Program-made: the position numbers and the translations under genes | Notes under the pieces: generated by a model | What the model was told of the DNA's origin: nothing | What the model saw: only the letters and a program-made list of their open reading frames with translations | Database searches by the model: none | In this document: in pieces, positions 1,789-25,019 of the stretch | How positions within the stretch are numbered: the stretch's first letter is position 1 | How the letters are laid out: each line of letters begins with the position of its first letter | Source of the DNA: Crambe crambe | Taxonomy: Eukaryota > Porifera > Demospongiae > Poecilosclerida > Crambeidae | NCBI GenBank assembly: GCA_963924555.1 | Contig: OZ004594.1 | Location: forward strand, 5,983,563-6,047,562 | Direction: 5' to 3' | Length of the DNA: 64,000 nucleotides

Positions 1789-4700
1789 ATAAGCTGTACA
1801 TTATGCTAGTTCCTTGTGATTGGTGTGATACTCATTTCAAACTGCAACGGCTACATAGAGTGTGTGTTGTAAGGAAAGATCTGTGCAGTGGACTCAGACT
1901 TGGGGCAAGGGTCACTGTAATTGGTGCTCCCACTCGTAAACTAGTCACTCACTCTCAGCAGACATTCATCAACTCAATTATAGAGGTATGTTTGTATATG
2001 TTTCATTCAGCCAAATAATATTTCAATGGAATTAAGTCAGAGGCAGAAGCTATTGCCCTCTATGCCAAGAAGCATTCTTTATCTTGAAAGGTGATATAAT
2101 TATAGTTATCATAGTACTTACTTTTGAGGAGCTATCAAATGGTACCCAATTTGGTTCTGCTGCTCTCCTACTTAACTGTCTGTGCTTTGTCTTTCTGTAC
2201 TTAACTGTCTGTGCTTTGTTTGTCTTTCTGTCTGTGTTTTTGTCATTCTGTACTATTGGTTGCTACTTAGTGTGATAGAAGAAAAAATCAAGTCAAGTTG
2301 AACTTCATAGAAATTAAAAAAATTTTTTTCAAGTGGAGCTGCATACCAAGTAGGAATATACTGGAACATGGCAGGATTTCCAACTAGAGTAAGCTAGTTC
2401 ATGCTATGAAGCGCCAACTAAAGCCTAGGGAAGAGCAACAAGGTACTGATGGTAGCATAGAGATAGCTTAGAGTTAGAGAAAGTTGCTCCTCAAAAGTAA
2501 AACGCTATAATATGGTACGAGTTTTTCATAAAATCCCAATTATTTGCTTGCTTTGTTTTATAATTCTGCATAGTTTGTGAATATTCTCATTGGGCGTTTA
2601 GTGCTACACTTGCCTTCAGCTTTGCAGGTTAACTGATTTCCCACGTTTCAATGCTGTACTGTCTAACCAAATTATTTTTTCAGCTGATATTTGCCCCCCT
2701 GGCTCTTATCATCGCCTCAAGATTGTGTCTGCTTTTGAAAAAGAAGACAGCAGAAAAAAAAACATGGTATGTGTACATACACAGGATTGGAAGCAGCTCA
2801 TGTATGGTCATTAAGCTAATGTAGTAAAGTTAAGTTCGATCGATTGTTTATTCTACTTTGTATCAATCATCTGACATGCATGACTTCTACTTTGATGTTT
2901 TTTATTTGCAGCATTAGATCTTCTTGCTTATGGATCAGATACAGTTACTATCCATCAGTTGTTTAAAGTTGCCAGTGCTTTGGATCCTAATCCAGTTCAC
3001 CATACTTCACTAAATGATCTTGTTGCCTCCTTAAGAAGGAATAACATGGACACATTCATTGATGGTATGACTAGGGGCAGTAAAATATGTTTGTTAGCTG
3101 AACCTGTAGACAACTTTTCTCTGTTTAGTAATAGAATTCTAGAACTGAAGTGGGTAAGACAATTTTCTGGCTCCATCTCAATTTGGTGATTTAGCTTATA
3201 GTGTTATACTGCACAGTTCTTATTAAAGATGAACCAAAGAACCAGAATGTCATGAATGGCTTACGTAGCTCTGGATCTGGTGGTATTGTGATCCTTTCCT
3301 TCAGTGATAGAATGTGTATGACAGATTTTACGATTGTTCTGGGGATAGATTATAGCTACAGTATTATGTGGCGCGTGTATGAAATTGGAGCTTTACATAC
3401 CATTATTAGCTGGAAGCCTTTTGTTGGCTCATGATAGAGTGTGTGTTATAGAGAATCTCAGCTCCCTCAAGAAAGATGTTAGAGAAATTCTGGAAAAAAA
3501 AATAGTGCATAATTATGTTTGTATTTATGTAGCCATGGAGAGAGATCGGGTGGTTTTGAATGTGCCTAGACAGAAGCAGAAGGGTAAAACTAAGGCTCAA
3601 GAGTTATCTTGGCCATTGAGCTGTAAGATCTGGACTCTTGTAGATCAGTAAGACAGAAAGAAATCTTTATCTAAAGCCAATAGTGAAGTATTGAGGGATT
3701 GAGGGAGTATTCCCTGCAGGTGTGTGTGACAAATTACTTTGTGTGGATGGTAGGAAGGGATTTATAGAAGCAGCTTGCTTATGATGAGAAATTCTAGCCT
3801 CGTACCTAGGCCCCATGAAAAAAGCAGTGTCTGGGTATCAAGAGCCATAGAAGAAGCCCCTGGAAAAATATATTATATACCAAGGCCCCCATGAAGGGGT
3901 TATAAACTTCAAACATGCAATCTATACATTAATCATTGTATTGACTCTATTAGGACACATCAGTCATCGATAAAGGATTAGTAGAGTGAGTCTGGAAATA
4001 TATAACTGATACACTTTATTCATATTAGTTCACATAACTTTGCAGTCGTTTCGGGCTGGTAGTAGTGAACGATCCCAATGACCTTTCTCCTCAAGTACAC
4101 CTGCATGATGTCATGATGAGTCATATCACGAGCAGTAGCAGAAGTGGAGGCTCTCCTCCCCTCTTGTGGATCTGCATCAATACTCATCAGTGATGGAAGA
4201 GGTAAATGAAGATGCCTCCATTCTATTGCAGGATTTTTATGTTGCTAGTCGTAGAGTACGGATGTCTGCATCACGTGCTATGGACATTCCCATCGGAGCT
4301 CTCAACAGCATGCATGTATTTCGATTGGTAATGTATGTATGGTTTAGTGTAATATGAAGCAAGCTTCACACAGACTCGTCATAGGAAGCATTTTTTTTTT
4401 TTTGCAAGGATCGATCCAAAGATCTTGCCTTACCAGAAGAAAGAAAGTCTTCTGGTGTACACATAATAGTCATACATATATTGTCATACTTTTTCAGTGT
4501 GTGGCTCATTTCACTTGCCTAAGTGACTGATTGTAACTGGATCAGAACAATTTCTGTTCTCTGAACAATTGTATGATACTTAGTACACAATTGATTGTCA
4601 GGAACTAATTGATTCTCATTTTTTTTTTGTGTGTAGGAATGCCGTTGCATCTGCACATGCTAAGCTAAATCTGAAGAAAAAGGTTAGTCACAGATATGTC

Positions 4701-4824
4701 ATATGTCATCAGGTAACAAATTCTCAATGACTATGTCGTATATATGTATGTGTGTTAAGCAGTTGTAGAAGATGCGATTTATTTATATGAAGAATCACTT
4801 ACAAGCCGATTTGGTGAGCTTTAA
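1789..4824 (+). CDS. MCMDC2: MCMDC2-like protein (partial gene model, several exons)
   Basis: MCMDC2 is a divergent MCM-family protein acting in meiotic recombination in animals. Exons match it in collinear order: about 1789-1985 (GARVTVIGAPTRK), 2684-2766 (PPGSYHRLK), 2912-3153 (LDLLAYGSDTVTIHQLF), about 3404-3647 (AGSLLLAHDRVCVIENLSS, ending SCKIWTLVD), about 4047-4332 (FGLVVVNDPND, then LLQDFYVASRRVRMSASR), 4637-4682 (NAVASAHAKLNLKKK) and 4763-4824 (VEDAIYLYEESLTSRFG). Good GT and AG signals flank most of them. Open problems: the exon between 3217 and 3400 and its phase are unclear. Within 4047-4332 the two matching halves lie in different frames, and the same break exists in the right-arm copy. 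The phase into the last exon also does not fit. The N-terminus was not found. The gene converges on the astacin copy at 5436-6688. Identification is from remembered family sequence. Confidence 0.65.
2335..2490 (+). repeat. Dispersed repeat inside MCMDC2 intron
   Basis: This block contains TTTCCAACTAGAGTAAGCTA, then AGCGCCAACTAAAGCCTAGG and GAGCAACAAGGTAC. It recurs in reverse complement at about 63640-63790 and partly in the direct sense at about 29520-29600. No coding content or terminal repeats were seen. Confidence 0.6.
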
Positions 4825-5435
4825 TTTTTTTTGTACCCAAGTACCCAAGTGTTACCCTCTAAATTATGCTAGCTCTTTACACTTATGCTTAATTCCCAGG
4901 TTATTCAGTTCTTGGTTTACACGCTACTGTTCACTTGCTGCAAGAGTTTTTAAAAACAACAAGAAGAAAAAAAACTCTAGCTGCACTCATAGTGGTAGAC
5001 ACTGATTTCATTGAACGCCTGGTCTGAACATGGTATATATGGTATAACCACGGTGTTATGACGTTACTTTTTACGATAGTTTGATGAGAGCTTAAGACTT
5101 CTTCATAAGCAGATTGTAGACTTTTGTAAGTGCCATAGAATGGCTAATATTCATCAGCATGAAGAATAGTTTATCTTTATTTTTATTTCGTCATGACTCC
5201 TAAATCAAAGATATTTTTATAATCATGACCCATGCTATCTGTTGTGTGTATCCAACATTTTAATTTGTGTGTGCAATGGCAATTCATTATGTTTCTTATG
5301 TAAGTACTGTCAAGAAAGAGTGTCAGTGCAGAGTTATAACCGAAAACAGTTAAATGCAATGCTGTATAATTATCATCATATCATCATATCATCATAGGTT
5401 TATAATTACGTTCAAGGTCATATTATATTCTTAGA
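4825..5435. other. Intergenic, no gene
   Basis: AT-rich convergent intergenic space between the MCMDC2 3' end and the astacin pseudogene, mirrored at about 22811-23880. It includes a short ATCATCAT run near 5380. No other feature was seen. Confidence 0.5.
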
Positions 5436-6688
5436 TTAATTGCATCCATAGAGTTTGTTGACTGTTACACAGTCACTCACACTTAAATGTTGAGTTCTTC
5501 TGAGGTATGGGCTTCCTTGAGACCAATACACTAGATAATTAATAATATCGATTGTATTCCTCCCATTTTTACTAAATGCCTTTTCGGTTGTAGTGCATGA
5601 TCAAACCATAATCATATCCCAGTTCATATGTATTCACTTCAGACATGGTACACCTTTTAAATTGACTTAGGTACCCTTGAGGTATATTTTCTTTGTTGTT
5701 CTTGACGTACAAGTCTTGATTGGGTCTGGTACGTTCATGCCATATTCCAATTGCATGGCCTATTTCATGCAGGATAACATGATGAAAATCACATCCAGGT
5801 GTTTGTATATCGATTGTTATCTGATAGTCTTGTGTGTACCCCACTGTATTGGTGTAGCAACCTTTGCCATCTGAACGAAATACCAGGGTATCTTCTCCAG
5901 CATGTTCTGTTTCTTGGAAAGTCAAACAAGTCTTCTCGCTCCACTCTCTGATTGCTAGAGTCATTCATACTCTCATGGATGTGATACACTACTCTTCCTT
6001 CTGGCCAGCGTAGAGACTCTTGTACTGCAGTTGAGGAAATCTAAATGGTTATAAAAAGGTTCCAGTCCTATTATTGTACCTCCTTATGCTTAAAATACCT
6101 TTCTTGCTATACTATGATAATTGTTTACGTAAAGGTGAACGACAAGCGATGTACATGATTAGCCTCGCTCCCAGGCTCTCCGTGAATTCTTCACTGAGAA
6201 CCTGGAAACGAGGCTATGTACATGTTAAGAATAATCACATGTACAATCATAATTATGTAATGAACTTACTTCAGGATTTAGTGGCTCCTCGTAGTATGCT
6301 TTAATCAGCTGTCTGCTGATGGCCAAATCACCCTCAAAGTACTTTCCGTTACTATATATCGAGTCGAGTTTAGGAAGATCATCATCTTCCACTAGAGGAA
6401 ACACATCCTATAGAATTATATCAAGGTTGTCTTAAATTCAAACACACTGGTTACTAAAATGGCATTGGACAAAAACTCCCCATCTTGTTTCAATGAATCC
6501 ACCCATGCAGAAATGGCTCCTTTCCCATTTATTTTAAATGCTGCGATCATGTACTAAATCATTCAAGTCGACTCACTTTCTGATGTGCAATGTGATTTCC
6601 AAATGGTGTATCATGATCCCTTGAGTTCACTCTAATCGTTGGTCTGCACCAGGAACAGCCAGAGAAGCATTACAGCAGTTTGATGCAC
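5436..6688 (-). pseudogene. Astacin metalloprotease, broken left-arm copy
   Basis: This is the mirror copy of the intact gene at 21353-22810, with the same three exons and splice sites. It still shows the zinc motif HEIGHAIGIWHERTRPNQD and the Met-turn HY. It carries several disabling changes relative to the right copy. The start ATG is GTG (6686-6688). An 11-base deletion in the signal-peptide exon leads quickly to a stop. About 20 bases are missing after NDS at the start of the catalytic domain (near 5950). One extra A near 5580 turns HYNQKAFSKNG into HYNRKGI and a stop. The middle exon (about 6270-6408) is still open. A truncated product from an internal start is conceivable, but it would lack secretion and the C-terminal cysteines. 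Confidence 0.85.
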
Positions 6689-6857
6689 GTTAGTGCTAGC
6701 TATGTGGCTACATATGACACTTCTAAATGTCCTGTAGCAACTTGTATGCCGATTATAATGACACATTAAGGGATATAGTTGGTATTGTATGAATATTAGA
6801 GTTACACTATTGGACAATAAAGCCTACCTGCACGGTAATAATGCTGTACCCAGGAAG

Positions 6858-6884
6858 CTGTGTGTGTGTGTGTGTGTGTAGCAG
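6858..6884. repeat. GT microsatellite
   Basis: A run of GT dinucleotides. The mirror position in the right arm (21125-21186) is a much longer CA run, so the locus changed length after the arms were formed. Confidence 0.9.
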
Positions 6885-6889
6885 CTGGC

Positions 6890-7890
6890 TTTCGCTTTCT
6901 CTTTGTAAGTGGGGTGAAGGAGAGAGTTTCTTCCAGTTTGGCCTTCCCATATACCTACGATTAGTTAAGATACTGTAATGGGGGTACAAAGATTACGATG
7001 ACAAGGGTCAGCCTAATGGTAATCTAGATCCCCACACTAGTGACAATGACCTTTCACCTTCGCAAATGTATAAACATTTATATTGTACGTCCATCCTAAC
7101 ATTGTAGTTTCTTTCCGTGATGACCTTGGGTAAACTTAGCACGTGCGCTTGCCCCACAATGCTTTCCTAGTTGATAACTTAATACCTCTGCACCTTTGTC
7201 AAACTGAAATGTCATTGCATGGAGTGTGTTCGAGAGAGGGAGGGTCTGAAGAAAAAGAAGAAGCTAACTTTCAAGGCTAGGGAGAGAAGTTGGATGGCTA
7301 CAGTGTTACAGGTCTGCCCCACCCCCCACCTAAGGTTACCATACAAATAGGTACGTTATGTTCGCCACCACTCCTCTCCCAAGCAGTTATTCATTAAACG
7401 TTATTCCATTGGCTACAAAATATAATTTTGATATCTGGGATCCAATTTCACATAAATAATTTTCAATCACATACAGTGAACAGTGGTACAGAATTCAGAG
7501 GGTCAATTCCAATAATAGTTATAGCATAAAAAAAAAGGAAAATTAATAAACTTGCATTCTTGCATTATAAAAACTTAGCTACTTTGTTGTTTTGTAGCGA
7601 TATTTTCAAAAAGTGCATAATTAATATCCCATACCTACGTAGGTGCATATGTATAAGCAATTAATGAACACAATTTGCTTGTTTAGAACCCACAGGCCTT
7701 TTGCAACTCGAACACTACACACATGCACTCACAAAAGCTCTATTTTTAAACAAAGCCTACTAGGATACCAACTTTCAAGGTGACCTCAGCCTTTGTAGAA
7801 AAGGCTAGCTTTAATAACTACAATAGTAGGTTGTATTGATATTTTCGTGCAGGTCTATGAAATTAACTACCTCCTTTCCCAAATGTTTCT
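6890..7890. other. No gene seen
   Basis: Arm sequence shared with about 19930-21120 on the right. No convincing ORF or RNA was seen. The right arm carries a private insertion of about 175 bases at 20107-20282 that is absent here near 7710. Confidence 0.5.
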
Positions 7891-7896
7891 CTTTAC

Positions 7897-8086
7897 CTGT
7901 GATAGTTGTAGTTTAGTTTGAGCCGTTCCATCATGGCCATATCGAGACACATTGCACTATCCCTGGAGTGGTTTCGCTGGATCCTGTCCAATGCAGACCC
8001 TTTTAAATGTAGCTTAGTAAATAATTGCCTCCATTGAGCAGAAAGGCTTTCAATTGAATTGAACACTTCTCCATAATCCTCAGGTG
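7897..8086 (-). CDS. Death-fold domain exon (left copy)
   Basis: A 190-base exon on the minus strand, bounded by an AG acceptor (CACCTGAGG follows it) and a GT donor (GTAAAG). It encodes a helical segment, APEDYGEVFNSIESL, then W-R-Q-L-F-T-K-L, L-D-R-I-Q and the C-terminal helix. The W..L...L....L..I pattern fits the Death domain superfamily, which mediates homotypic protein interaction in immune and apoptotic signalling. The right copy at 19732-19921 is nearly identical but has WLK where this copy has RLK in the last helix. I could not build the rest of the gene. A sequence at 8691-8940 (minus) may be an upstream exon, but it matches nothing I know. Confidence 0.5.
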
Positions 8087-8146
8087 CTATAACAGAACAA
8101 AATATATGAGGGGGAAAATTATTCTTAGTGGGGGAAAAAATCAGTG

Positions 8147-8708
8147 TTATTAATAAGGAACAACTACTAAAGCCTATTCGCATTCACTTGATCCCTTGAT
8201 CATTTATTATAACTGCTATAACTTTAACCACAAAAAACAAAACAAAAAAAAAAAACAAAAACAAGAGTGGGTGATCAGCTCTCTGCTGGTGTCTTAAACA
8301 TGATAATTGAGAAAGATATAGTAAATGATCAAGGGATCATGCGAATGTAAATAGATGTTAGGTAAAAACGATTGTTTTTGGTAATTTCGCAGGTGCTGTT
8401 AAATGGATAGACTAATTTATATGGGAGTTTCAAGGTCATATTTACATTGCACTCGCTTATCAAACTCTGATCCATAAGTTCCAGCAAGATATTATCTACA
8501 TGAAATGCACAAATTCATTTTACTCTGCACCAACCACATTATAGGAATAATAATGCAAGCTGTATATGTATGTTGCTAATGTGGTATCCTCAAAAAGAGG
8601 AGGAAAAACCAGTTTTACTCTGAATCGAGCATGTTTCCAAGCTTACATCATCAGAATGTATTCTCTTATCTACCGGTATTCCAGAGACATTTAACAATTA
8701 TTATTAAA
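8147..8708. mobile_element. Left-arm private insertion with internal hairpin
   Basis: Sequence between the paired landmarks AAATCAGTGTT (8144) and CGGTGGACAG (8709) is absent from the right arm, where these two join directly near 19670-19690. Inside, TGATCCCTTGATCATTTA at about 8189 faces its inverted partner at about 8322-8338. No coding region was found. It inserted after the arms split, or was deleted precisely from the right arm. Confidence 0.6.
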
Positions 8709-8939
8709 CACTGGCTCGGTGGACAGACAAATTACAAGCCTATTACATAAGCATGGAGCCATAGGATCTATTCCTAAAGTATCCTCTCTTATTATGAACA
8801 TAATGCTATCCTGATAAGTGTTGAGGGAACTGGTGTGTCCCAGAATCGTTGTAAGAAGAAGCAATCCCCTGATCCAGCTCTTGCTTTGGTATCGATACAG
8901 ATACGCCCACATCCTACCGTGTCTGTGGACAATGTGATA

Positions 8940-9030
8940 GTTGATATCCTGGCGGCGACGAAATATCCTAGGAGATAGGTCGCTCACGACAGATTTCTGT
9001 CGCCGCGACAGAATCTCCCAGCGATAAAAT
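8940..9030. repeat. GGCGACAAAATATCC fold-back repeat
   Basis: A copy of a short dispersed hairpin whose halves read GGCGGCGAC...ATATCCTAGGAGAT and the complement ending GTCGCCGCGACAG. Other copies lie near 10395-10505, 16097-16200, 19380-19440 and 25750-25825. Confidence 0.7.
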
Positions 9031-9059
9031 AAACTGTGACACCGGTCCAAAGTTTATAC

Positions 9060-9268
9060 ACACCCTCTACGTAGCGTCTATGGAGTGTATAAGCTATTAA
9101 ACTTTGCTGTCTACGAAGACAGTTAGGATTAGAGCTTTACTTCAATTTGAACGATACCATTCCTTAGATCAGGTGTAGAGTTTCAATATGGTACCAAGAT
9201 CGTAGATATAGGATGAAGCAGTCGGGAGTTATGGCTGTCAAGATTATTATTATTATTATTATTATTAA

Positions 9269-9309
<41 letters not shown>

Positions 9310-9340
9310 TATTATTATTATTATTATTATTAGTAAATTA
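9060..9340 (+). repeat. Dispersed repeat ending in a TTA microsatellite tail
   Basis: The sequence GATATAGGATGAAGCAGTCG, then GGAGTTATGGCTGTCAAGA, runs straight into a TTA run (9242-9340). The same 3' end with a TTA tail occurs at about 53700-53845 (+) and in reverse at 19000-19200. This looks like a retroposon with a microsatellite tail. Two of its copies define the inner edges of the large palindrome. Confidence 0.7.
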
Positions 9341-9562
9341 CTAAAGTCTAAAGTCATTCTTTGAAGAACTTGGGAGAAGGATTAGGGAAAACACTGGGGA
9401 AATAAAGTCTTAATTTCAGGATCCAGAAACATGAATTAAAAAATAAAATGTCAACAAAAAAAAAAAAAAAAAACTATAATAATTATGATTAAATGAGAAT
9501 AAGAAGTCCCCAGCACGGCAGAAGCATTGCCTCTTTGTATTTCAATAGATAATCTCTGCAAT

Positions 9563-11896
9563 ATATGGCGGTCGATAATTGAAAATCTACTCTACTATTG
9601 CAAGCATCAATGGCAATGAGAGAGCTATAGGGTGAAATGAAAATATACTTGAAGGTTCAGTTGAAAGAGTAATTGAATAGTTCAACTTTTTTGATATAAT
9701 TTTATTTAATGGTGTGGTCCTGCTTATAAATAAGTTAATTTTAGTTATGTAATTTTTCATGAGCTGAATGATTGTGATCTGGAAGGGCTAGTGCTGATGG
9801 AGTAAGTATCTGTACAGTTTGTAATACAGCCTTCTAAAATAATTGCAGCGAGCGAGCGCAGCTTGCGAACTGACTCTCAGGTCATGACTCATTGAAATTA
9901 TATATATATATATCCATGTCTACACTCCAAGTCGAATGCAGCACATTGCTATAGTAGTAGTTGTAGAGGCTCTAAGCTTCAGTACTTTGTTATATATAAA
10001 CTCAACAGCAAAATCTTTAAAAGTTAACTTGCTTGCTCGCTCGCTGTCAAAATTAATGTTGCATATTTCCCTAGTATAGCGAGCGATTCATGTACGTGAA
10101 TCGATCGAGTAACAATTTATTGACTAGTACGTACAATAGCGGTAGCGTAAGCTCGAAAATTAACTGTGGAAAAAGGAAGTTGAATAACTTCTTATAATAC
10201 AATACAGCTTAAAAATTTTAAATATCGCGAGATTTGCGAACGTGAAAGCGCGCACATAAAAATCATTGCAGCGAGCGAGCTGACTCTCAGGTCATGACTC
10301 ATTGAAATTGTATATATATTTGGAAGCAAAATCTTCTAAAGAGTTGTAATAATTGCTTGTTCGCTCTCTTTTAACTACTTTATATGCAGCGACAATATAT
10401 CCTGGCGGCGACGAAATATCCTAGGAGATTAGGTCGCTCACGAATAATTTCCTAGGATATTTTGTCGCCGCGACAGAATCATCCAGCGACAAAATAATTT
10501 GTGACACCGGCACCAGGACACTTAAATTTTTTTTCAAAGTCTGAAAAAGAAATCGAACGCGAGACCACACATTCAATATCACGCAGTACCAACCATAAAT
10601 TATAATGACACGTGTAATATATCTATGTACGTACTAACCGGTACAAAATACCATTTAACTTCAAACTCTTAGGGAACCCTTTAAGCCTGCCACAACAATG
10701 CGTGAATAGTATGTCCCATACTTCTATATAGCGGTCCCTGCGTTCGCTCACTTGCAGGAACCATTGTAATACATAGTCCGGGTGTCACAGCTAGTTATAC
10801 AAAGACAATTGCTCACCAACAAATTGCCCTAGCAGTAAAAAAATCTCCTATGTCGTTTCTGCATGACACGTACGTACCGTTCATATACCGTACATACGCC
10901 TGGGGCATTTTGAAATGTAGACATACTTATACAATTTCAATGAGTCATGACCTGAGAGTCAGCTCGCTCGCTGCAATGATTAAGTGCGTGCTTTCACATT
11001 CGCAAATCTCGCGATATTTAAAATTTTAAAGCTGTATTGTATTATAAGAAGTTGTTAAACTTCCTTTTTTCATAGTTAATTTTCAAGCTTACACTCCCGC
11101 TATTATACGCACTAGTTAAAGGATTTTTATTTCATTCTCGATCGATTATTTCCACATGCACACGCAAGCAAGTAAGTTAACTCAAAGATTTTGCTGTTGA
11201 ATTTATTATATGTAACAAAGTACTTAAGCTTAGAGCCTCTACAACTACTACTATAGCAATGTGCTGCATTCGACAGTGAGCAAGTAGAGCAGCTTGTAGG
11301 CTCCAGTGCTTGATATTGCTATCAGAGACGGGAAGCTAAATACATAGAAAGTAGTAAATACTTACCACAAGCACTTAGATGAGCCAAGCGCCTACATAAG
11401 CCTAGCGCCTCAATGACAAAAGGCTGTAGAAAACAATCTAGCTTGATTACAATAGGAACATGCGCATTATGCACGCGCGCAGCGCAACTATTTCGGGACA
11501 CGTACCATACGTACGCGCACGCCTGGGGCATTTTGGAGTGTAGACATGGATATATATATATAATTTCAATGTCATGACCTGAGAGTCAGCTCGCAAGCTG
11601 CGCTCGCTCGCTGCAATTATTTTAGAAGGCTGTATTACAAACTGTACAGATACTTACTCCATCAGCACTAGCCCTTCCAGATCACAATCATTCAGCTCAT
11701 GAAAAATTACATAACTAAAATTAACTTATTTATAAGCAGGACCACACCATTAAATAAAATTATATCAAAAAAGGTGAACTATTCACTCTTTCAACTGAAT
11801 ATATTATTTTCATTTCACCCTATAGCTCTCTCATTGCCATTGATGCTTGCAATAGTAGAGTAGATTTTCAATTATCGACCGCCATATATGAGCGGA
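9563..11896. mobile_element. Fold-back element A
   Basis: A self-complementary block of about 2.3 kb. The left end TATATGGCGGTCGATAATTG (about 9565) is mirrored at about 11870-11890. Paired blocks continue inward: CTGGAAGGGCTAGTGCTGAT at 9780 with 11670, and the GCAGCGAGCGAGC block and TTAAATATCGCGAGATTTGC at 10220 with 11000. The centre holds a GGCGACGAAATATCC hairpin. There is no coding capacity. The left half lacks about 270 bases present in the right half. Element B is a second copy, so this is a family and not a one-off event. The ends resemble no superfamily I can name. Confidence 0.75.
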
Positions 11897-12845
11897 CACA
11901 GAGAGGCTGGACCTTAATAAAATAAAATTCCACGATTTAAAGTTAGGGCAAACGTGCACTAATTAAATATGAAGCGCGATGGATCAATGGAATAATACCG
12001 TGCGGAGAATCCACCACAAAAGAAACGTCCGAAGATCACTCAATCTCATTGATAATCGGATACCCCTAGTAGAAATCACATACCAACTAAGCCTAAGGAC
12101 TAACTAGTAGCCCAAGCTGCTACTACAATCATTCGACAATTCAAAACTCGGGGGATCTTATTTACCACATTTCGCGTACTATAAAAATTAAAGTATGCAT
12201 AACATGCCAAATTGTCGCAATGTTCACACAAAAATGGATTGTGTGAACATTGCGACAATTTGGGTGTGCTATGCACATATTAGTTTTTACAGCGTGTACA
12301 CCATGTGATAGAAACTATCAAGTTAAAAGGTTTGATTATTAATTATGCTGGTAAGGTCAGACTTTAAACATGTCTATATTTTCTTAGAATTATTGAACAA
12401 GATGTATAGGCTGAATTCGTTGATTACTACTTTACGGTACTAATGGAACATTTAAAATGAAATAAAAACAAATTGTATGAATGAATATAATTTAAAGTCA
12501 ATGTTAAGAATACAGTACAATCTTATCAATTGTTAAATTACAATTAACTATTTAAAGCGCAATCGTGAGCGATAATTAAAATCTCATATTATTATTACAT
12601 AGAGCAGGCTCATATAGTTGTGCAAAATTACTCAGAGTGATTTATGACTTTTTCGATTTAATCTGTACGAAGGTTGCTCCTTTCGTTCGTGTGCCCAAAA
12701 ATTGAACAGGCAAAATCGCAACCGCCGCGCCTCGTTGCCTGGCTTCGTCTAATACTCTTATTCTTAAGCCAGTATCGAATTCTTCAGGTCTGTGTATGTT
12801 TGCATAATATGTAGGCTTGACACGCAAACGCCCACGCTCATTAAT
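11897..12845 (+). repeat. Flank block F1, direct copy of 17580-18590
   Basis: From AAAATTCCACGATTTAAAG to ACGCCCACGCTCATTAATAG this matches 17580-18590 in order, ending in both cases at a TAA microsatellite. The first 330 bases also match 14460-14765 in reverse. Near 12205-12260 it has a self-complementary stretch (AAATTGTCGCAATGTTCACA). No gene was seen. The recurrence suggests it is the outer part of the fold-back element. Confidence 0.7.
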
Positions 12846-12847
12846 AG

Positions 12848-12905
<58 letters not shown>

Positions 12906-12929
12906 GTAATAATAATAATAATAATAATA

Positions 12930-12972: not shown

Positions 12973-12974
<2 letters not shown>

Positions 12975-12989
12975 ATAAAAATACTATAT

Positions 12990-14470: not shown

Positions 14471-17400
14471 TTTTATAGTGCGCGAAATGTGGTAAATAAA
14501 CTCCGCCGAGTTTTGAATTATTGAATGATTGTAGTAGCAGTTTGGGCTACCAGTTAGTCCTTAGGCTTAGTTGGTATGCGATTTCTACTAGGGGTATTCG
14601 ATTATCAATGAGATTGAGTGATCTTCGGACATTTCTTTTGTGGTGGATTCTCCGCACGGTATTATTCCATTGATCCCTCGCGCTTCATATTTAATTAGTG
14701 CACGTTTGCCCTATCTTTACATCGTGGAATTTTATTTTATTAACGTCCAGCCTGTCAGTGTCCGCTCATATATGGCGGTCGATAATTGAAAATCTACTCT
14801 ACTATTGCAAGCATCAATGGCAATGAGAGAGCTATAGGGTGAAATAAAAATATATTTGAAGGTTCAGTTGAAAGAATAATTGAATAATAGTCCACCTTTT
14901 TTGATATAATTTTATTTAATGGCGTGGTCCTACTTATAAACAAGTTAATTTTAGTTATGTATTTTTTATGAGCTGAATGATTGTGATCTGGAAGGGCTAG
15001 TGCTGATGGAGTATCTGTACAGTTTGTAATACAGCCTTCTAAAATAATTGCAGCGAGCGAGCGCAGCTTGCGAGCTGACTCTCAGGTCAAGACTCATTGA
15101 AATTCCAAAATGCCCCAGGCGTGCACGTACGTATGGTACGTGTCCCGAAATAATTGCGCTGCGCGCGTGCATAATGCGCATGCTCCAATTGTAATCAAGC
15201 TAGATTGTTTTCTACAGCCTTTTGTCATTGAGGCGCTAGGCTTATGTAGGCGCTTGGCTCATCTAAGTGCTTGTGATAAGTATTTACAACTTTCTATGTA
15301 TTGAGCTTCCCGTCTCTGATAGCAATATCAAGCACTGGAGCCTACCAGCTGCTCACTTGCTCACTGTCGAATGCAGCACATTTCTATAGTAGTAGTTGTA
15401 GAGGCTCTAAGCTTCAGTACTTTGTTATATATAAACTCAACAGCAAAATCTTTGAGTTAACTTGCTTGCTCGCTCGCTGTCAAAATTAATGTTGCATATT
15501 TCCCTAGTATAGCGAGCGATTCATGTACGTGAATCGATTGAGTAACAATCTATTGACTAGTGCGTACAATTGCGGTAGCGTAAGCTCGAAAATTAACTAT
15601 GGAAAAAGGAAGTTGAACAACTTCTTATAATACAATACAGCTTAAAAATTTTAAATATCGCGAGATTTGCGAACGTGAAAGCGCGCACATAAAAATCATT
15701 GCAGCGAGCGAGCTGACTCTCAGGTCATGACTCATTGAAATTGTATATCTTTGTCTACATTTCAAAATGCCCCAGGCATATATACGGTACGTACGTGTCG
15801 TGAAATGATGTGCATGAAATTGTTTTCTACAGCTTTTTGTCATGGAGGCGCTTGGCTTATCTAAGTGATTGTAGGCGCTTGGTTTATTTAAGTGCTCGTG
15901 GCAAATTCACAGCTTTATATGCGTGGAGCTTCCTGGGTGGTACTCCACTTGCTCACTTGGTCACTTTAAATGCTGTACATTGCTATAGTATTAGTTGCAG
16001 AGGCTCTACAGGCTAATTTAAGTGCTTTGTTACATATATATTTGGAAGCAAAATCTTCTAAAGAGTTGTAATAATTGCTTGTTTGCTCTCTTTTAACGAC
16101 GAAATATCCTAGGAGATTAGGTCGCTCGCGACAGAATTTCCTAGGATATTTTGTCGCCGCGACGGAATCATCCAGCGACAAAATAATTTGTGACACCGGC
16201 ACCAGGACACTTAAATTTTTTTCAAAGACTGAAAAAGAAATCGAACGCGAGACCACACATTCAATATCACGCAGTACCAACCATGGATTATAATGACACG
16301 TGTAATATATCTATGTACTAACCGGTACAAAATACCAAACTCTTAGGGAACCCGTTAGGCCTGCCACAACAATGCGTGAATAGTACGTCCCATACTTCTA
16401 TATAGCGGTCCCTGCGTTCGCTCACTTGCAGGAGCCATTGTAATACATAGTCCGGATGTCACAGCTAGTTATACAATTGCTCACCAACAAATTGCCCTAG
16501 CAGTAAAAAATCTCCTATGTCGTTTCTGGATGACACGTACGTACCGTACATATACCGTACATACGCCTGGGGCATTTTGAAATGTATACATAGATATACA
16601 ATTTCAATGAGTCATGACCTGAGAGTCAGCTCGCTCGCTGCAATGATTAAGTGCGCGCTTTCATATTCGCAAATCTCGCGATATTTAAAATTTTAAAGCT
16701 GTATTGTATTATAAGGAGTTGTTAAACTTCCTTTTTTCATAGTTAATTTTCAAGCTTACACTCCCGCTATTATACGCACTAGTTAAAGAATTTTTATTTC
16801 ATTCTCGATCGATTATTTCCACATTCACACTCACACGTACGTGAATCGCTTGCTAGAGAAATGTGCAAAATTAATTTTGACAGCGAGCGAGCAAGCAAGT
16901 TAACTCAAAGATTTTGCTGTTGAATTTATTATATGTAACAAAGTACTTAAGCTTAGAGCCTCTACAACTACTACTATAGCAATGTGCTGCATTCGACAGT
17001 GAGCGTATTGTTAACTAAACTTCTGAATTTATTGCAGTCATCGAGCCAAGCGCCTACATAAGCCTAGCGCCTCAATGACAAAAGGCTGTAGAAAACAATC
17101 TAGCTTGATTACAATTGGAGTATGCGCATTATGCACGCGCTCAGCGCAACTATTTCGGGACACGTACCATACGTACGCGCACGCCTGGGGCATTTTGGAA
17201 TGTAGACATGGATATATATGTATAATTTCAATGAGTCTTGACCTGAGAGTCAGCTCGCAAGCTGCGCTCGCTCGCTGCAATTATTTTAGAAGGCTGTATA
17301 CGTGCCAGCATTACAAACTGTACAGATACTTACTCCATCAGCACTAGCCCTTCCAGATCACAATCATTCAGCTCGTGAAAAATTACATAACTAAAATTAA

Positions 17401-17870
17401 CTTGCTTATAAGCAGGACCACACCATTTAATAAAATTATATCAAAAAAGGTGAACTATTCACTCTTTCAACTGAATATATTTTCATTTCACCCTATAGCT
17501 CTCTCATTGCCATTGATGCTTGCAATAGTAGAGTAGATTTTCAATTAACGACCGCCATATATGAGCGGACACTGACAGGCTGGACATTAATAAAATAAAA
17601 TTCCACGATTTAAAGATAGGGCAAACGTGCACTAATTAAACATGAAGCGTGAAGGATCAATGGAATAATACCGTGCGGAGAATCCACAACTCAATCTCAT
17701 TGATAATCGGATACCCCTAGTAGAAATCACATACCAACTAAGCCTAAGGACTAACTGGTAGCCCAAGCTGCTACTACAATCATTCAACAATTCAAAACTC
17801 GGCGGAGCTTATTTACCACATTTCGCGTACTATAAAAATTAAAGTATGCATAACACGCCAAATTGTCCCA
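14460..17870. mobile_element. Fold-back element B with flank arms
   Basis: A palindromic block of about 3.4 kb. The left outer part (14460-14765) is the inverse of 17560-17870, then TATATGGCGGTCGATAATTG at 14771 is mirrored near 17560. It contains the roughly 270-base AATGCCCCAGGCGTGCACGT...GTCGAATGCAGCAC segment missing from the left half of A. The centre near 16000-16200 carries the GGCGACAAAATATCC hairpin. The two halves differ by indels. Small ORFs (for example 15110-15304 and its mirror) only reflect repeated sequence. No transposase was seen. Confidence 0.75.
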
Positions 17871-18590
17871 ATGTTCACACTAAAACGGATTTCCTGTGAA
17901 CAATACGACAATTTAGGTGTGCTATGCACACTTTAGTTTTTACAGCGCGTACGCCATGTGATAGAAACTATCTTTAAGTTAAATTTAAATCACTTTAAGG
18001 TTTGATTATTAATTATGCTGGTAAAGTCAGAACTTTAAACACGTCTATATTTTCTTAGAATTATTGAACAAGATCTATAGGCTGAATCCGTTGATTACTA
18101 CTTTACGGTACTAATGGAACATTTAAAAATGAAATAAAAACAAATTGTATGAATGAATATAATTTAAAGTTAATGTTAAGAATACAGTACAATCTTATCC
18201 ATTGTTAAATTACAATTAAGAGGAATTACTGTTTTGTGAAACTAACGGGAACATTTAAAGCGAAATCGCGAGCGATAATTAAAATTTCATCATATTATTG
18301 TTACACAGAGAGCAGGCTCATATAGTTGTGCAAAATTACTCAGAGTGATCATTTAGGATTTATGACTTTTTCTATGTAATCCGTACGAAGGTTGCTCCTT
18401 TCGTTCGTGTGCCTGAAAATTGGATAGGCGAAATCGTCTATACGAAGAACGGTGGCAACCACCGCGCCTCGCTGCCTGCCTTCGTCCAATACTCTTATTC
18501 TTAAGCCAGTATCGAATTCTTCGGTTCTGTGTATGTTTGCATAATATGTAGGCTTGACACGCAAAACGCCCACGCTCATTAATAGTATAA
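17580..18590 (+). repeat. Flank block F2, direct copy of 11897-12845
   Basis: Same content and sense as F1, with small indels (for example an added AACTATCTTTAAGTTAAATT stretch near 17970). It ends at the TAA run 18587-18675. Confidence 0.7.
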
Positions 18591-18613
18591 TAATAATAAT
18601 AATAATAATAATG

Positions 18614-18675
<62 letters not shown>
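18587..18675. repeat. TAA microsatellite
   Basis: An uninterrupted AAT/TAA run with one TGA interruption near 18611. It forms the tail of a minus-strand Penelope-like repeat. Confidence 0.9.
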
Positions 18676-18990
18676 TCAATAGAATTAGTTCTCATAAAAT
18701 TAGCTTATGAAACAAACCACCAACGTTTCGACCAGAATACTCTAGCCTTCATCAGGGTGATACTAAAAATGCACACAGAAACGACCTTATATATTTACGC
18801 TCGTTATCTTGACAACGCACATGCATACGCCTATGGATATTATGTTATAGCGTGCCATTACCCAGAGTTATAAAACACTATTTTCTGGTCGAAACGTTGG
18901 TGGTTTATTTCATGAGCTAATTAAATTTTTATGAGAACTAATTCTATTGAATTTTTATCATGTTAGCTGAGAAAAATAAGCAGAATAATG
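18676..18990. repeat. Penelope-like terminal repeats in inverted pair
   Basis: A minus-strand copy (about 18676-18880, ATTCAATAGAATTAGTTCTC at its 3' end) is followed by a truncated plus-strand copy (about 18883-18990, starting TTCTGGTCGAAACGTTGG). The two 3' segments face away from each other. The minus copy is collinear with 13298-13560. Confidence 0.75.
18716..18761 (-). ncRNA. Hammerhead-ribozyme-like motif, copy 2 (best)
   Basis: AUCACC, CUGAUGA, A, GGCUAGA-GUAU-UCUGGUC, GAAAC, GUU, GGUGGU. Helix II pairs over seven positions (with G-U pairs), helix I over six, and helix III over two. All core residues are present apart from the single extra A after CUGAUGA. Confidence 0.55.
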
Positions 18991-19011
18991 ATGATAACAA
19001 TAATAATCATC

Positions 19012-19380
19012 TTGACAGCCGTAACTCCCGACTGCTTCATCCTATATCTACGATCTTGGTACTTGGCATCGTTCAAATTGAAGTAAAGCTCAAGTCCTAA
19101 CTGTCAATTGCCGTTCGAGTGCCTTCGTGGACGCTTGACAGCCATAAGTCCCGACTGCTTCATCCTATATCTACGATCTTGTACCATCTTGAAGCTCTAC
19201 ACCTTAGGTAAGGATCAAATTGATCAAATTGAACAAGTCCTAACTATCAATTGCCGTTCGAGTGCCTTCGTGGACGACTCAAATTCTCGAACGCTTCGTA
19301 GACAGCAAAGTTTAATAGTTTATACACTCCATAGACGCTACGTAGAGGGTGTGTATAAACTTTGGACCGGTGTCACAGTT
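19012..19380 (-). repeat. Dispersed repeat, internally duplicated
   Basis: AACTCCCGACTGCTTCATCC appears here twice in tandem form (19020 and 19147), followed by AATTGCCGTTCGAGTGCCTT and AACGCTTCGTAGACAGCAAA. Related sequence is at 9060-9241, 52100-52230 and 53640-53800. Confidence 0.65.
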
Positions 19381-19439
19381 TATTTCGTCGCTGAGAGATT
19401 CTGTCGCGAGCGACCTAATCTCCTAGTCGCCGCCAGGAT

Positions 19440-19731
19440 ATCAACTATCACATTGTCCACAGACACGGTGAACTTTGAGGATGTGGGCGTATCTGTATCG
19501 ATACCAAAGCAAGAGCTGGATCAGGGGATTGCTTCTTACAATTCTGGGACACACCAGTTCCCTCAACACTTATCAGGATAACATTATGTTCGTAATAAGA
19601 GAGGATACTTTAGGAATAGATCCCATGGTTCCATGCCTATGTAATAGGCTCATAATTTGTCTGTCCACCGAACACTGATTTTTTCCCCACTAAGGATCAT
19701 TTTTCCCCTCATATATTTTGTTCTGTTATAG
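19440..19731 (+). other. Possible exon upstream of death-domain exon
   Basis: Two frames stay open across this stretch and both are kept open in the left copy. One reads DVGVSVSIPKQELDQG, the other GHTSSLNTYQDNIMFVIRED. An indel of six bases between the arms preserves both frames. I cannot assign a domain; a ZU5/UPA-type segment would be typical next to a Death domain, but the match is not convincing. Confidence 0.25.
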
Positions 19732-19921
19732 CACCTGAGGATTACGGAGAAGTGTTCAATTCAATTGAAAGCCTTTCTGCTCAATGGAGGCAATTATTTA
19801 CTAAGCTACATTTAAAAGGGTCTGCATTGGACAGGATCCAGCGAAACCACTCCAGGGATAGTGCAATGTGTCTCAATATGGCCATGATGGAATGGCTCAA
19901 ACTAAACTACAACTATCACAG
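19732..19921 (+). CDS. Death-fold domain exon (right copy)
   Basis: A 190-base exon between TTATAG and GTAAAG. It encodes APEDYGEVFNSIESLSAQW, then R-Q-L-F-T-K-L and ALDRIQRNHSRDSAMCLNM, ending in MEWLKLNYNY. The helix pattern and the conserved Trp, Leu and Ile positions fit a Death domain. It lies on the same strand as, and 1.4 kb upstream of, the astacin gene. I found no joining exons, so it is probably a separate gene whose remaining exons are unrecognised or lost. The left mirror copy is at 7897-8086. Confidence 0.5.
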
Positions 19922-20106
19922 GTAAAGAGAAACATTTGGGAAAGGAGGTAGTTAATTTCATAGACCTGCACGAAAATATCAATACAACCTACTATTGTAG
20001 TTATTAAAGCTAGCCTTTTCTACAAAGGCTGAGATCACCTTGAAAGTTGGTATCCTAGTAGGCTTTGTTTAAAAAATAGAGCCTTTGTGAGTGCATGTGT
20101 GTAGTG

Positions 20107-20282
20107 TATGGACGATGACCTGAAATAGATTCTTCATGGTTTCTTGTTCAGTTTCTTTATGCTGCTGCAGCATTTAGAAAATGATATCCCTTAGGTGTTT
20201 GGCATTAGGATTATTTCTACGACTAGACATCCAATTACGTATGGTGTCCTTGGGGTTCTGAGGTTAAATCAGTCAGACCAGA
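20107..20282. other. Right-arm private insertion
   Basis: Sequence between GTGTGTAGTGT and CGAGTTGCAAAAGG is absent from the left arm, where those landmarks meet (near 7705). No terminal repeats or coding were recognised. Confidence 0.55.
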
Positions 20283-21121
20283 CTCGAGTTGCAAAAGGCC
20301 TGTGGGTTCCTAGACAAGCAAATTGTGTTCATTAATTGCTTATACATATGCACCTAGGTATGGGATATTAATTATGCACTTTTTGAAAGTATCGCTACAA
20401 AACAACAACGTAAATTTTTATAATGCTTATTAATTTTCCTTTTTTTTTAATACCGATTCTGCTATAACTATTATTGGAATTGACCCTCTGAATTTTGTAC
20501 CACTGTTCACTGTATGTGATTGAAAATTATTTGTTTATGTGAAATTGGACCCCAGATATCAAAATTATATTTTGTAGCCAATGGAATAACCTTTAATAAA
20601 TAGCTGCTTGGGAGAGGAGTGGTGGCGAATATAACGTACCTATTTGTATGGTAACCTTAGGTGGGGGGTGGGGCAGACCTGTTACACTATAGCCATCCAA
20701 CTTCTCTCCCTAGCCTTGAAAGTTAGCTTCTTCTTTTTCTTCAGACCCTCCCTCTCTCAAACACGCTCCATGCGATGACACTTCAGTCTGATAAAGGTGC
20801 AAAAGTATTAAGTTATCAACTAGGAATGCAAAGCATTGTGGGGCAAGCGCACGTGCTAAGTTTACCCAAGTCATCACGGAAAGAAACTACAATGTTAGGA
20901 TGGACGCACAATATAAATATTTATACATTTGCATAATTATGAAGGTGAAAGGTCATCGTCACTAGTGTGGGGATCTAGATTACCATTAGGCTGACCCTTG
21001 TCATCATAATCTTTGTACCCCCATTACAGTATCTTAACTAATCGTAGGTATATGGGAAGGCCAAACTGGAAGAAACTCTCTCCTTCACCCCACTTACAAA
21101 GAGAAAACGAAAGCCAGCTGC

Positions 21122-21124
<3 letters not shown>

Positions 21125-21186
<62 letters not shown>
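21125..21186. repeat. CA microsatellite
   Basis: About thirty CA units, expanded relative to the left-arm mirror at 6858-6884. Confidence 0.95.
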
Positions 21187-21188
<2 letters not shown>

Positions 21189-21352
21189 CTTCCTGGGTAC
21201 AGCATTATCACCGTGCAGATTCCAAATAGGTAGGCTTTATTGTCCAATAGTGTAACTCTAATATTCATACAATACCAACTATATCCCTTAATGTGTCATT
21301 ATAATCGGCATCATTTAGAAGTGTCATATGTAGCCACATAGCTAGCACTAAC

Positions 21353-22810
21353 ATGTATCAAACTGCTGTAATGCTTCTTTGGCTGTTGGCCACTACTTCC
21401 TGGTGCAGACCAACGATTAGAGTGAACTCAGGGGATCATGATACACCATTTGGAAATCGCATTGCACATCAGAAAGTGAGTCGACTTGAATGATGATTTA
21501 GTACATGATTGCAGCATTTAAAATAAATGGGAAAGGAGCCATTTCTGCATGGGTGGATTCATTGAAATGAGATTGGGAGTTTTTGTCCTATGCCATTTTA
21601 GTAACCAGTGTGTTTGAATTTAAGACAACCTTGATATAATTCTATAGGATGTGTTTCCTCTCATGGAAGATGATGATGATCTTCCTAAATTCGACTTGAT
21701 ATATAGTAACAGAAAGTACTTTGAGTGTGAGTTGGCCATCAGCAGACAGCTGATAAAAGCATACTATGAGGAGCCACTAAATGCTGAAGTAAGTTCATTA
21801 CATAATTATGATTGTACATGTGATTATTCTTAACATGTACATAGCCTCGTTTCCAGAAGAATTCACGGAGAGCCTGGGAGCGAGGCTAATCATGTACATC
21901 GCTTGTCGTTCACCTTTACGTACATAATTATCATAGTATAACAAGAAAGGTATTTTAAGCATAAAGAGGTACAATAATAGGGACTGGAACCTTTTTATAA
22001 CCAGTGGCAGAGATACTGGGGGGGGGGGGGGGCAGGGGGGGCTCTAGCCCCCCACTTTTTGACAGTTGATGCCCACTTTTGACAATTGATAATTGAATAA
22101 TATGTACGTATTATTAGTACATTGTGGTATGTGCCACCAGCCCCCCGACTTTTATTGTGGTGTTTCTGCCCCTGATAACCATTTAGATTTCCACAACTGC
22201 AGTACAAGAGTCTCTATGCTGGCCAGAAGGAAGGGTAGTTTATCACATCCATAAGAGTGTGAATGACTCTACAGCAGGAAAGATCAAAGTAGCAATCAGA
22301 GAGTGGAGTGAGAAGACTTGTTTGACTTTCCAAGAAACAGAACATGCTGGAGAAGATACCCTGGTATTTCGTTCAGATGGCAAAGGTTGCTACACCAATA
22401 CAGTGGGGTACACACAAGACTATCAGATAACAATCGATATACAAACACCTGGATGTGATTTTCATCATGTTATCCTGCATGAAATAGGCCATGCAATTGG
22501 AATATGGCATGAACATACCAGACCCAATCAAGACTTGTACATCAAGATCAACAAAGAAAATATACCTCAAGGGTACCTGAGTCAATTTAAAAGGTGTACC
22601 AGGTCTGAAGTGAATACATATGAACTGGGATACGATTATGGTTCGATCATGCACTACAACCAAAAGGCATTTAGTAAAAATGGGAGGAATACAATCGATA
22701 TTATAAATTATTTAGTGTATTGGTCTCAAGGAAGCCCATACCTCGGAAGAACTCAACATTTAAGTGTGAGTGACTGTGTAACAGTCAACAAACTCTATGG
22801 ATGCAATTAA
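21353..22810 (+). CDS. Secreted astacin-family zinc metalloprotease (intact, 3 exons)
   Basis: Astacins (M12A) are secreted zinc endopeptidases that cut extracellular matrix, cuticle or growth-factor precursors. Exons: 21353-21475, 21648-21788 and 22187-22810; junctions are phase 0 with GT-AG ends. The 295-residue product starts MYQTAVMLLWLLATTSWC, a signal peptide of about 18 residues. A propeptide follows (residues about 19-100), then LCWPEGRVVYHI, the usual start of the mature enzyme. The zinc motif HEIGHAIGIWHEHTRPNQD starts at residue 186, with three His ligands, the catalytic Glu and the conserved second HE. The Met-turn SIMHY is at 241-245. Cysteines near residues 133, 156, 178, 215, 285 and 294 could form the usual disulfides. 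No CUB or EGF domain follows, so it is a minimal astacin. The canonical DRD after the third His region is NQD here. The start is supported by the signal peptide and by the in-frame exon. Confidence 0.85.
22002..22174. mobile_element. 173-bp MITE in astacin intron 2
   Basis: Terminal inverted repeats CAGTGGCAGAGATAC and, at the other end, the complement of CAGGGGCAGAAACAC. It is flanked by ATAAC direct repeats (21997-22001 and 22175-22179). The left palindrome arm has the empty site (TTTATAACCATTTAG in reverse near 6045), so the insertion limits are exact. It contains a G homopolymer at 22019-22032. A partial relative is at 56044-56092. Confidence 0.8.
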
Positions 22811-23359
22811 TCTAAGAATATAATATGACCTTGAACATAATTATGAACCTATAATAAAGATGATGATATGATGATAATTATACAGCATTGCATTTAACTG
22901 TTTTCTGAAAAAATAATACCAGGAACAAGGCTAATGGTGATAACTCTGCACTGACACTCTTTCTTGACAGTACTTACATAAGAAACATAATGAATTGCCA
23001 TTGCACACACAAATTAAAATGTTGGATACACACAACAGATAGCATGGGTCATGATTATAAAAATATCTTTGATTTAGGAGTCATGACGAAATAAAAATAA
23101 AGATAAACTATTCTTCATGCTGATGAATATTAGCCATTCTATGGCACTTACAAAAGTCTACAATCTGCTTATGAAGAAGTCTTAAGCTCTCATCAAACTA
23201 TCGTAAAAAGTAAACGTTATAACACCGTGGTTATACCATATACGTATACCATGTTCAGACCAGGCGTTCAATGAAATCAGTGTCTACCACTATGAGTGCA
23301 GCTAGAGTTTGTTTTTTTTTGTTGTTTTTAAAAACTCTTGCAGCAAGTGAACAGTAGTG
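22811..23359. other. Intergenic, no gene
   Basis: Mirror of about 4925-5435. An AATAAAGATG hexamer-like signal at 22852, about 40 bases after the astacin stop, could serve polyadenylation. Confidence 0.45.
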
Positions 23360-23752
23360 TGCAAGCACGATCACCAATGTTCACTCAAAGCATTGAATCA
23401 AGGCATTTTATTCAAGGAAATACGGCATGTATGCATGCATAGAGCTTGTACATACATGAATGCAACTATGCAATACACATAGAGACTTATCTTCACAGGA
23501 GAAGAAGTAGTTACACATACATACATAGCTCCAATAATCTTTCTAAGTACTCGATGACTATACTAACACACCACCATCATTCCTTAGCCCAGGGCAGGAT
23601 TTTATGGGGGGAAGCTTCGAAAATTTGAAATAGCAAAAGACCCCTGGGGATAACGACTGTATGCTTTATGTGACCTTCTCCAGACTTTTAACTTACCTCT
23701 CTACCAATGTATCTGTCAGGATCAGAATTAGTCTTGAAATGTAGACAAGGAG
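23360..23752. other. Right-arm private insertion
   Basis: The left arm reads directly from CAGCAAGTGAACAGTAG to GTAAACCAAGAACTG in reverse near 4910-4940. Here about 390 bases separate these landmarks. They contain short ORFs only, with no recognisable element. Confidence 0.55.
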
Positions 23753-23879
23753 ATAAACCAAGAACTGAATAACCTGGGGATTAAGCAAAAGTGTAAAGAG
23801 CTAGCATAATTTAGAGGGTTTGGTCAAGTAACACTTGGGTACTTGGGTACAAAAAAAAAATTAAAATTCACCAAATCGG

Positions 23880-24650
23880 CTTGTAAGTGATTCTTCATGT
23901 AAATGAATCGAAATTACTGCATCTTCTACAACTGCTTAACACACATACATATATACATAGTCATTGAGAATTTGTTACCTGATGACATATGACATATCTG
24001 TGACTAACCTTTTTCTTCAGATTTAGCTTAGCATGTGCAGATGCAACGGCATTCCTACACACAAAAAAAAATGAGAATCAATTAGTTCCTGACAATCAAT
24101 TGTGTACTAAGTATCATACAATTGTTCAGAGAACAGAAATTGTTCTGATCCAGTTACAATCAGTCACTTAGGCAAGTGAAATGAGCCACACACTGAAAAG
24201 GTATGACAATATATGTATGACTATTATGTGTACACCAGAAGACTTTCTTTCTTCTGGTAAGGCAAGATCTTTGGATCGATCCTTGCAAAAAAAATGCTTC
24301 CTATGATGAGTCTGTGTGAAGCTTGCTTCATATTACACTAAACCATACATACATTACCAATTGAAATACATACATGCTGTTGAGAGCTCCGATGGGAATG
24401 TCCATACCACGTGATGCAGACATCCGTACTCTACGACTAGCAACATAAAAATCCTGCAATAGAATGGAGGCATCTTCATTTACCTCTTCCATCACTGATG
24501 CCATGCATAAGTATTGATGCAGATCCACAAGAGGGGAGGAGAGCCTCCACTTCTGCTACTGCTCGTGATATGACTCATCATGACATCATGCAGGTGTACT
24601 TGAGGAGAAAGGTCATTGGGATCGTTCACTACTACCAGCCCGAAATGACT
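23880..24650 (-). pseudogene. Orphan 3' exons of the MCMDC2-like gene
   Basis: The reverse-strand copy of the last three exons. FGLVVVNDPNDLS, then LLQDFYVASRRVRMSASRGM, lie at 24646-24325; NAVASAHAKLNLKKK at 24056-24011; VEDAVISIHLHEESLTSRFG at about 23935-23870. The palindrome edge cuts the gene between two exons, so everything upstream of FGLV is absent. Compared with the left gene it has 9 more bases in two places (YLCMASVMEE against YSSVMEE, and VISIHLHEES against IYLYEES). Both changes keep the frame. The same frame mismatch inside the long exon is present. Confidence 0.7.
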
Positions 24651-25019
24651 GCAAAGTTATGTGAACTAATATGAATAAAGTATATCAGTTATATATTTCC
24701 AGACTCACTCTACTAATCCTTTATCGATGACTGATGTGTCCTAATAGAGTCAATACAATGATTAATGTATAGATTGCATGTTTGAAGTTTATAATCCCTT
24801 CATGGGGGCCTTGGTATATATTTTTCCAGGGCCTCCTTCTATGGCTCTTGATACCCAGACCCTGCTTTTTTTCATGGGACCTGGGTACGAGGCTAGAATT
24901 TCTCATCATAAGCAAGCTGCTACTATAAATCCCTTCCTACCATGCACACATAAAGTATTTTCTATAATTTGTCACACACTATTATTATTTTATATAATAA
25001 GGACAATATCAATGAGTTC

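Follow-up and report, generated by a model that had tools for sequence, protein, structure and literature searches.

A palindrome in the genome of the sponge Crambe crambe belongs to a duplicon family confined to candidate centromere regions

Introduction

What kind of sequence is a large palindrome whose two arms have diverged, and does it stand alone in its genome? The question is raised by a window of 64,000 nucleotides from chromosome 14 of the sponge Crambe crambe (contig C17, positions 5983563-6047562; C17:5983563-6047562), in which two arms carrying gene fragments are mirrored around a spacer. A preliminary description of this window treated the palindrome as a solitary curiosity, remarkable in that every gene was retained in one sound copy. 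Neither view is supported. The palindrome belongs to a duplicon family that extends across the genome, with many copies and one region per chromosome, and its genes are fragments carried by a multi-copy duplicon. From the distribution of this family, we consider it likely that the palindrome represents a duplicon family specific to the centromere regions of C. crambe.

Results

We searched assembly odCraCram1.1 of C. crambe, which has 18 chromosomes. The sequence searched comprises 143,139,886 bases in 119 contigs and is slightly smaller than the genome in the published genome note (143.20 Mb in 124 scaffolds). Its eighteen contigs of 5.7-9.7 Mb are the chromosomes, and C-numbers (C1, C17 and so on) are the contig labels used here. 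Alignment searches with queries of 2-3.7 kb yielded 74 and 96 matches for the arm, 98 for the outer part of the duplicon unit, and 195 for a module at 25-28.4 kb of the window. Because these searches scored only the best 38-40 candidates per query, the whole genome was also scanned with two 40-base probes, allowing up to 3 mismatches and using reversed-pattern controls:

3954-3993, forward strand: arm probe, 40 bases, 21 genome matches on 11 chromosomes
28051-28090, forward strand: leucyl-tRNA-synthetase probe, 40 bases, 37 genome matches on 16 chromosomes

Combined, the two probes mark all 18 chromosomes with 58 sites (21 + 37), and the reversed-pattern controls of both gave 0 matches in the genome. 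All 58 fall within a single internal region of their chromosome; the regions measure 11-612 kb and lie at relative positions of 0.19-0.88 (most 0.37-0.63). The summed spans of the regions amount to 2.04 Mb of 141 Mb; in 20,000 random placements the sum averaged 69 Mb and was never below 41 Mb. Among the alignment matches listed, those outside these regions were 5 short ones (about 136 bases), all from the arm query with 96 matches. Among the matches listed for the 25-28.4-kb module (of 195), none fell outside, and those listed for the outer unit (of 98) fall in the cluster regions of 15 chromosomes. A neighbouring stretch of the window, at 28.4-29.8 kb, served as a control for dispersal:

28390-29800, no strand assigned: composite of dispersed repeats, one resembling a miniature inverted-repeat transposable element (MITE) and one with tandem units of about 40-43 bases

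This control is scattered over 15 chromosomes, and the restriction of the duplicon family is therefore specific. A subtelomeric repeat was rejected as an identity for the family because the regions are internal.

The large palindrome with nested palindromic elements, as first described, is real. Its principal parts are the following:

3722-9242, forward strand: left arm, 5,521 bases
9243-19133, no strand assigned: spacer of inverted and direct repeat modules, delimited by (ATT)n/(ATA)n tracts
19134-24979, reverse strand: right arm, 5,846 bases
1-3721, forward strand: outer part of the duplicon unit, missing from the right arm; in C9, C12 and C21 it continues collinearly into the arm
8148-8715, forward strand: 568-base segment of the left arm only, which occurs in C9 and C21
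22003-22182, no strand assigned: 178-base segment of the right arm only, without counterpart in the left arm, C9, C12 or C21

The left arm and the reverse complement of the right arm are 96.91% identical over 4,854 ungapped columns, with 150 substitutions. BLAST pieces between the arms have 80-98% identity counting gaps, with E-values of 1.6e-156 to 0, so the match is not due to chance. The inner edge of the right arm lies at about 19134 and not, as first described, at 19012. In other copies the homologous unit reaches left past 3722 to at least window position 1. The composition of the region (positions 1-29800) is slightly low in guanine plus cytosine, at 37.4% versus 39.5-41.5% per chromosome.

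The arms are genuinely diverged, by 3% substitutions and by insertions or deletions (indels) of up to 568 bases. Three larger segments are private to the right arm (392, 178 and 176 bases) and one to the left (568 bases), as had been reported, and segments of 30, 44 and 38 bases are also found only in the right arm. The earlier reading of the larger segments as insertions mostly fails. When the C9, C12 and C21 copies were compared, the 392-base (23364-23754) and 176-base (20107-20284) segments were found in C9 and C12. Since these two segments and the 568-base segment also occur in other copies, the three differences would most simply be deletions in the opposite arm. The 178-base segment has no match in C9, C12 or C21 and therefore looks like a true insertion.

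Within the spacer, inverted repeats pair 9561-9930 with 11533-11889 and 10886-12189 with 14468-15789, and direct repeats pair 10312-11281 with 16034-17004 and 11381-12937 with 17043-18675. The arms and the adjoining module carry these gene fragments and frames:

5436-6040, reverse strand: broken astacin (M12A) copy of the left arm, with two in-frame stops
22187-22810, forward strand: open astacin frame of the right arm, 207 codons
7896-8183, reverse strand: open frame whose match to a death domain is weak (E 0.0007) and, at 20.1 bits, under the Pfam cut-off of 22.6
26450-28333, forward strand: multi-exon, frameshifted leucyl-tRNA synthetase gene fragment, a member of the duplicon family

In NCBIfam the astacin frame scores best as a bacterial protease, at 103.9 bits against a cut-off of 300, a name that reflects the common astacin fold only. 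The leucyl-tRNA synthetase exons are separated by introns, which identifies the fragment as a genomic duplication and not a processed copy.

Palindromes also occur at other sites. Five other regions were fetched (C9, C12, C14, a second C17 site and C21; 200 kb in all), and four of them contain palindromes, with ungapped arm identities of 98.4-99.99%. The C12 palindrome has 9.5-kb arms with 1 substitution, and the C14 palindrome has 17.5-kb arms with 8 substitutions around a 2.3-kb spacer. At the second C17 site, 7.4-kb arms with 6 substitutions are accompanied by an outer 4.7-kb pair at 98.9%, and the pairs on C21 are 98.4 and 98.8% identical. The innermost arm end is that near window position 9242 in the palindrome of the window, in C12 and in C21, and that near window position 2739 in C14. 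Because the axes differ between sites, the palindromes must have formed more than once. We also mapped 253 typed matches of about 250 bases or longer (59, 62, 65 and 67 from the 74, 96, 98 and 195 matches of the four queries), leaving aside shorter matches and the remaining matches of the 25-28.4-kb module. Both orientations are present on 13 of the 18 chromosomes, and on 12 of the 18 two copies of one module lie inverted to each other no more than 150 kb apart. Palindromes are common among the regions and not universal. On C13 (C13:1408674-1455544) and C18 (C18:3502476-3556248), the arrangement of the leucyl-tRNA-synthetase probe sites comes close to mirror symmetry, which hints at palindromes some 50 kb long. 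Just left of the window and into it, inverted matches at C17:5958486-5965223 and 5978989-5984876 suggest that another palindrome, with its centre near C17:5.972 Mb, adjoins that of the window.

The arms of one palindrome tend to resemble each other more than they resemble arms elsewhere. A maximum-likelihood tree of 10 rows, built from homologues of window positions 3782-6060, places left and right arms as sisters in all four palindromes represented by both arms, with support of 99/98 for the window, 100/99 for C21 and 100/100 for C12; the C14 arms are identical. Over this region the window arms are 97.7% identical, and arm identity between chromosomes is 89-97%. Twenty-two parsimony sites group the window arms against C9/C21, and the alternative groupings have 4 and 1. 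Arm divergence varies continuously between palindromes, from 0.01% to 3%. Gene conversion is a plausible cause of the similarity between arms; a recent inverted duplication is an alternative, especially for C12 and C14.

Several other features were observed. The MITE-like repeat in 28390-29800 has short inverted matches at its ends. Positions 31264-32574 hold a tandem array with a 62-base unit (about 15 + 5 copies), and a 600-codon open frame at 35125-36924 on the reverse strand has a reverse transcriptase domain (RVT_1, E 6.9e-29). Several segments within 41934-60974 are directly repeated; frames in this part (44495-44908 and 46047-46412) resemble ornithine/diaminopimelate/arginine decarboxylases, which suggests duplicated genes. 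Of 13 chromosome starts examined, 11 consist of a telomere-like repeat, (CCCTAG)n, or (CTAGGG)n on the other strand, and not the usual animal (TTAGGG)n. The repeat is in the first 60 bases of C3, C5, C6, C8, C10, C11, C13, C16, C18, C19 and C20, and the starts of C1 and C15 are without it.

Discussion

Based on its distribution, we infer that the set of blocks marked by the duplicon family, one on each chromosome, is a strong candidate for the centromere regions of C. crambe. We postulate that blocks of ordinary genomic DNA (the astacin gene, the leucyl-tRNA-synthetase fragment with its introns, and other modules) were duplicated, and that the duplicons were exchanged among regions at or beside the centromeres of all 18 chromosomes. 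Physical clustering of centromeres in the nucleus could help such exchange. Frequent inverted placement within each region would produce palindromes, and recombination from arm to arm and between chromosomes (gene conversion) might then keep the copies alike. The extent of homogenisation would vary, from 99.99% on one chromosome to 97% in the window, where the arms diverge.

Several results weigh against this proposal. The spacer modules have relatives both inside the clusters, those of C5 and C16 among them, and scattered outside, and other parts of the genome contain astacin genes of different kinds. The fetched C9 stretch has no palindrome, just two short inverted pairs, and on five of the 18 chromosomes (C5, C8, C9, C19 and C20) all of the typed matches are in a single orientation. 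A shuffle test of shared axes gave 11 chromosomes observed versus 9.7 expected; because blocks were moved whole, the test could not separate shared axes from chance. A search for conversion tracts between the window arms gave nothing significant (471 of 5,000 shuffles were as extreme), and no CENP-B-box-like site was found. In the tree, the second C17 site groups with C14 (97.4%) and is about 91% identical to the window arms, so that C17 holds two arm subfamilies, and homogenisation therefore acts per palindrome and not per chromosome. The C17-C14 identity across chromosomes (97.4%) is close to the 97.7% between the window arms. Lastly, the probe sites on C1, C9, C15 and C17 spread over 183-612 kb instead of forming one compact site.

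That breadth would also suit an explanation without centromeres, in which a heterochromatic block present once per chromosome, such as a meiotic pairing site, a cluster of the PIWI-interacting RNA (piRNA) type or an organising region, collects duplicons. One internal region per chromosome would fit such a block. However, a single internal region shared by every chromosome is what is expected of centromeric DNA; other kinds of shared region are rarer and need extra assumptions. Rfam gave no match in the window. We consider a non-centromeric block unlikely. Quite improbable, in our view, is a giant mobile element with terminal inverted repeats, a transposon that captures genes and inserts into a single region of each chromosome. 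It would account for the long inverted arms, the gene fragments and the many copies, and some clusters do contain frames resembling a transposase or a helicase (on C12, TNP-like RNase H and AAA_11; on C17, DDE_3). Each of the transposase-like frames, however, is confined to one cluster among the six regions compared, and no target-site duplication was seen when the outer edges were read by eye. Other palindromes have another axis, with opposite polarity in C14. We reject the transposon as the principal explanation because copies cross its supposed terminus at 3722: in all five other regions (C9, C12, C14, C17 and C21) homology lies on both sides of this position.

Two further explanations have very little to recommend them. 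An assembly whose mean HiFi read is about 6.9 kb (67.94 Gb in 9.82 million reads) could be suspected of fold-back joins or of linking two haplotypes head to head, and such reads cannot bridge the near-identical palindromes of C12 and C14. They do suffice to resolve arms differing by 3%. The substitutions and indels between the window arms argue against a fold-back artefact, as first proposed, and so do the continuous range of arm divergence, the absence of N from both the window and the five other regions, and the occurrence of the regions on all 18 curated chromosomes. On the divergence of its arms, a fold-back artefact is rejected for the window palindrome; this rejection does not cover C12 and C14. 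We find it equally hard to believe that the palindromes are a selected gene array, like mammalian Y ampliconic genes, that preserves the astacin protease. Astacin frames are intact in several clusters, and the ratio of nonsynonymous to synonymous substitution rates (dN/dS) is 0.32-0.86 between the right copy of the window and nine others, on few substitutions. However, many astacin copies are broken, among them the one in the left arm and the two on C21. Across all pairs compared, dN/dS varies between 0.25 and 3.27, again on few substitutions, and the leucyl-tRNA-synthetase fragment behaves likewise without astacin.

We return to the duplicon family as a constituent of the centromere regions. 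Tandem arrays in the stretches scanned, the window and locus L030, are short ones only, and no satellite array was seen in the stretches read. We speculate that the palindromic gene-fragment duplicons themselves might be functional, satellite-poor sponge centromeres of the inverted-repeat type, having arisen independently of those in yeasts. This is a tentative extension that we entertain but do not favour. If true, it would place a yeast-kind inverted-repeat centromere in an early-branching animal, and symmetry and recombination, rather than tandem satellites, would keep centromere DNA uniform among chromosomes.

In excerpts from the open-licence literature (including PMC7385117, PMC10280926 and PMC10232365), we found no description of a sponge centromere sequence, which is not proof of absence; the excerpts on sponges mention only a split "likely at the centromere" and the centriole gene CENPJ. 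The words "centromer" and "repeat" do not occur in the C. crambe genome note. A sequence tag for one region on each of 18 chromosomes would offer a direct route to finding and testing centromeres in a non-bilaterian animal. The series of palindromes, with arm divergence of 0.01% to 3%, is natural material for studying gene conversion.

Parts of this organization have parallels in known systems. Yeasts are known to have inverted-repeat centromeres, and primates have pericentromeric duplicons. In fission yeast centromeres, inverted imr/otr repeat arms surround a central core; the C. tropicalis study PMC4741521 also draws on these centromeres as a comparison. The sponge palindromes likewise have inverted repeat arms around a central core, but their arms carry gene fragments. 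Barriers formed by transfer RNA (tRNA) genes, as in fission yeast, were rejected for the sponge: a tool with bacterial settings found a single tRNA gene in 20 fetched pieces and no such gene in the window. In primates, pericentromeric segmental duplications have copied segments with exons and introns among the pericentromeres of many chromosomes. The sponge exon/intron segments are similarly copied among many chromosomes but, unlike those of primates, are strongly palindromic and have no satellite array in the stretches read. The ampliconic palindromes of Y chromosomes are large, with nearly identical arms that are plausibly kept so by gene conversion. Those of the sponge share the large, near-identical arms, but are found on many chromosomes, one region each, and not on a sex chromosome alone.

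The closest resemblance in detail is to the centromeres of the yeast Candida tropicalis. These have one site per chromosome with inverted repeats around a core, and sequences common to different chromosomes (PMC4741521, PMC7292649); the sponge regions resemble them in this, with palindromes common though not universal. Arms there are 93% identical within a centromere versus 82% between centromeres, a pattern ascribed to intra- and inter-chromosomal recombination (PMC4741521). In the sponge, arms of the same site are also more alike, at 97.7-100% versus 89-97% between sites. The sponge regions differ in being tens to hundreds of kb in size, in their gene fragments and nested repeats, and in their animal host; palindromes are missing from the C9 stretch examined and apparently from others. 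The duplicon family would let one ask whether inverted-repeat centromeres evolved outside fungi.

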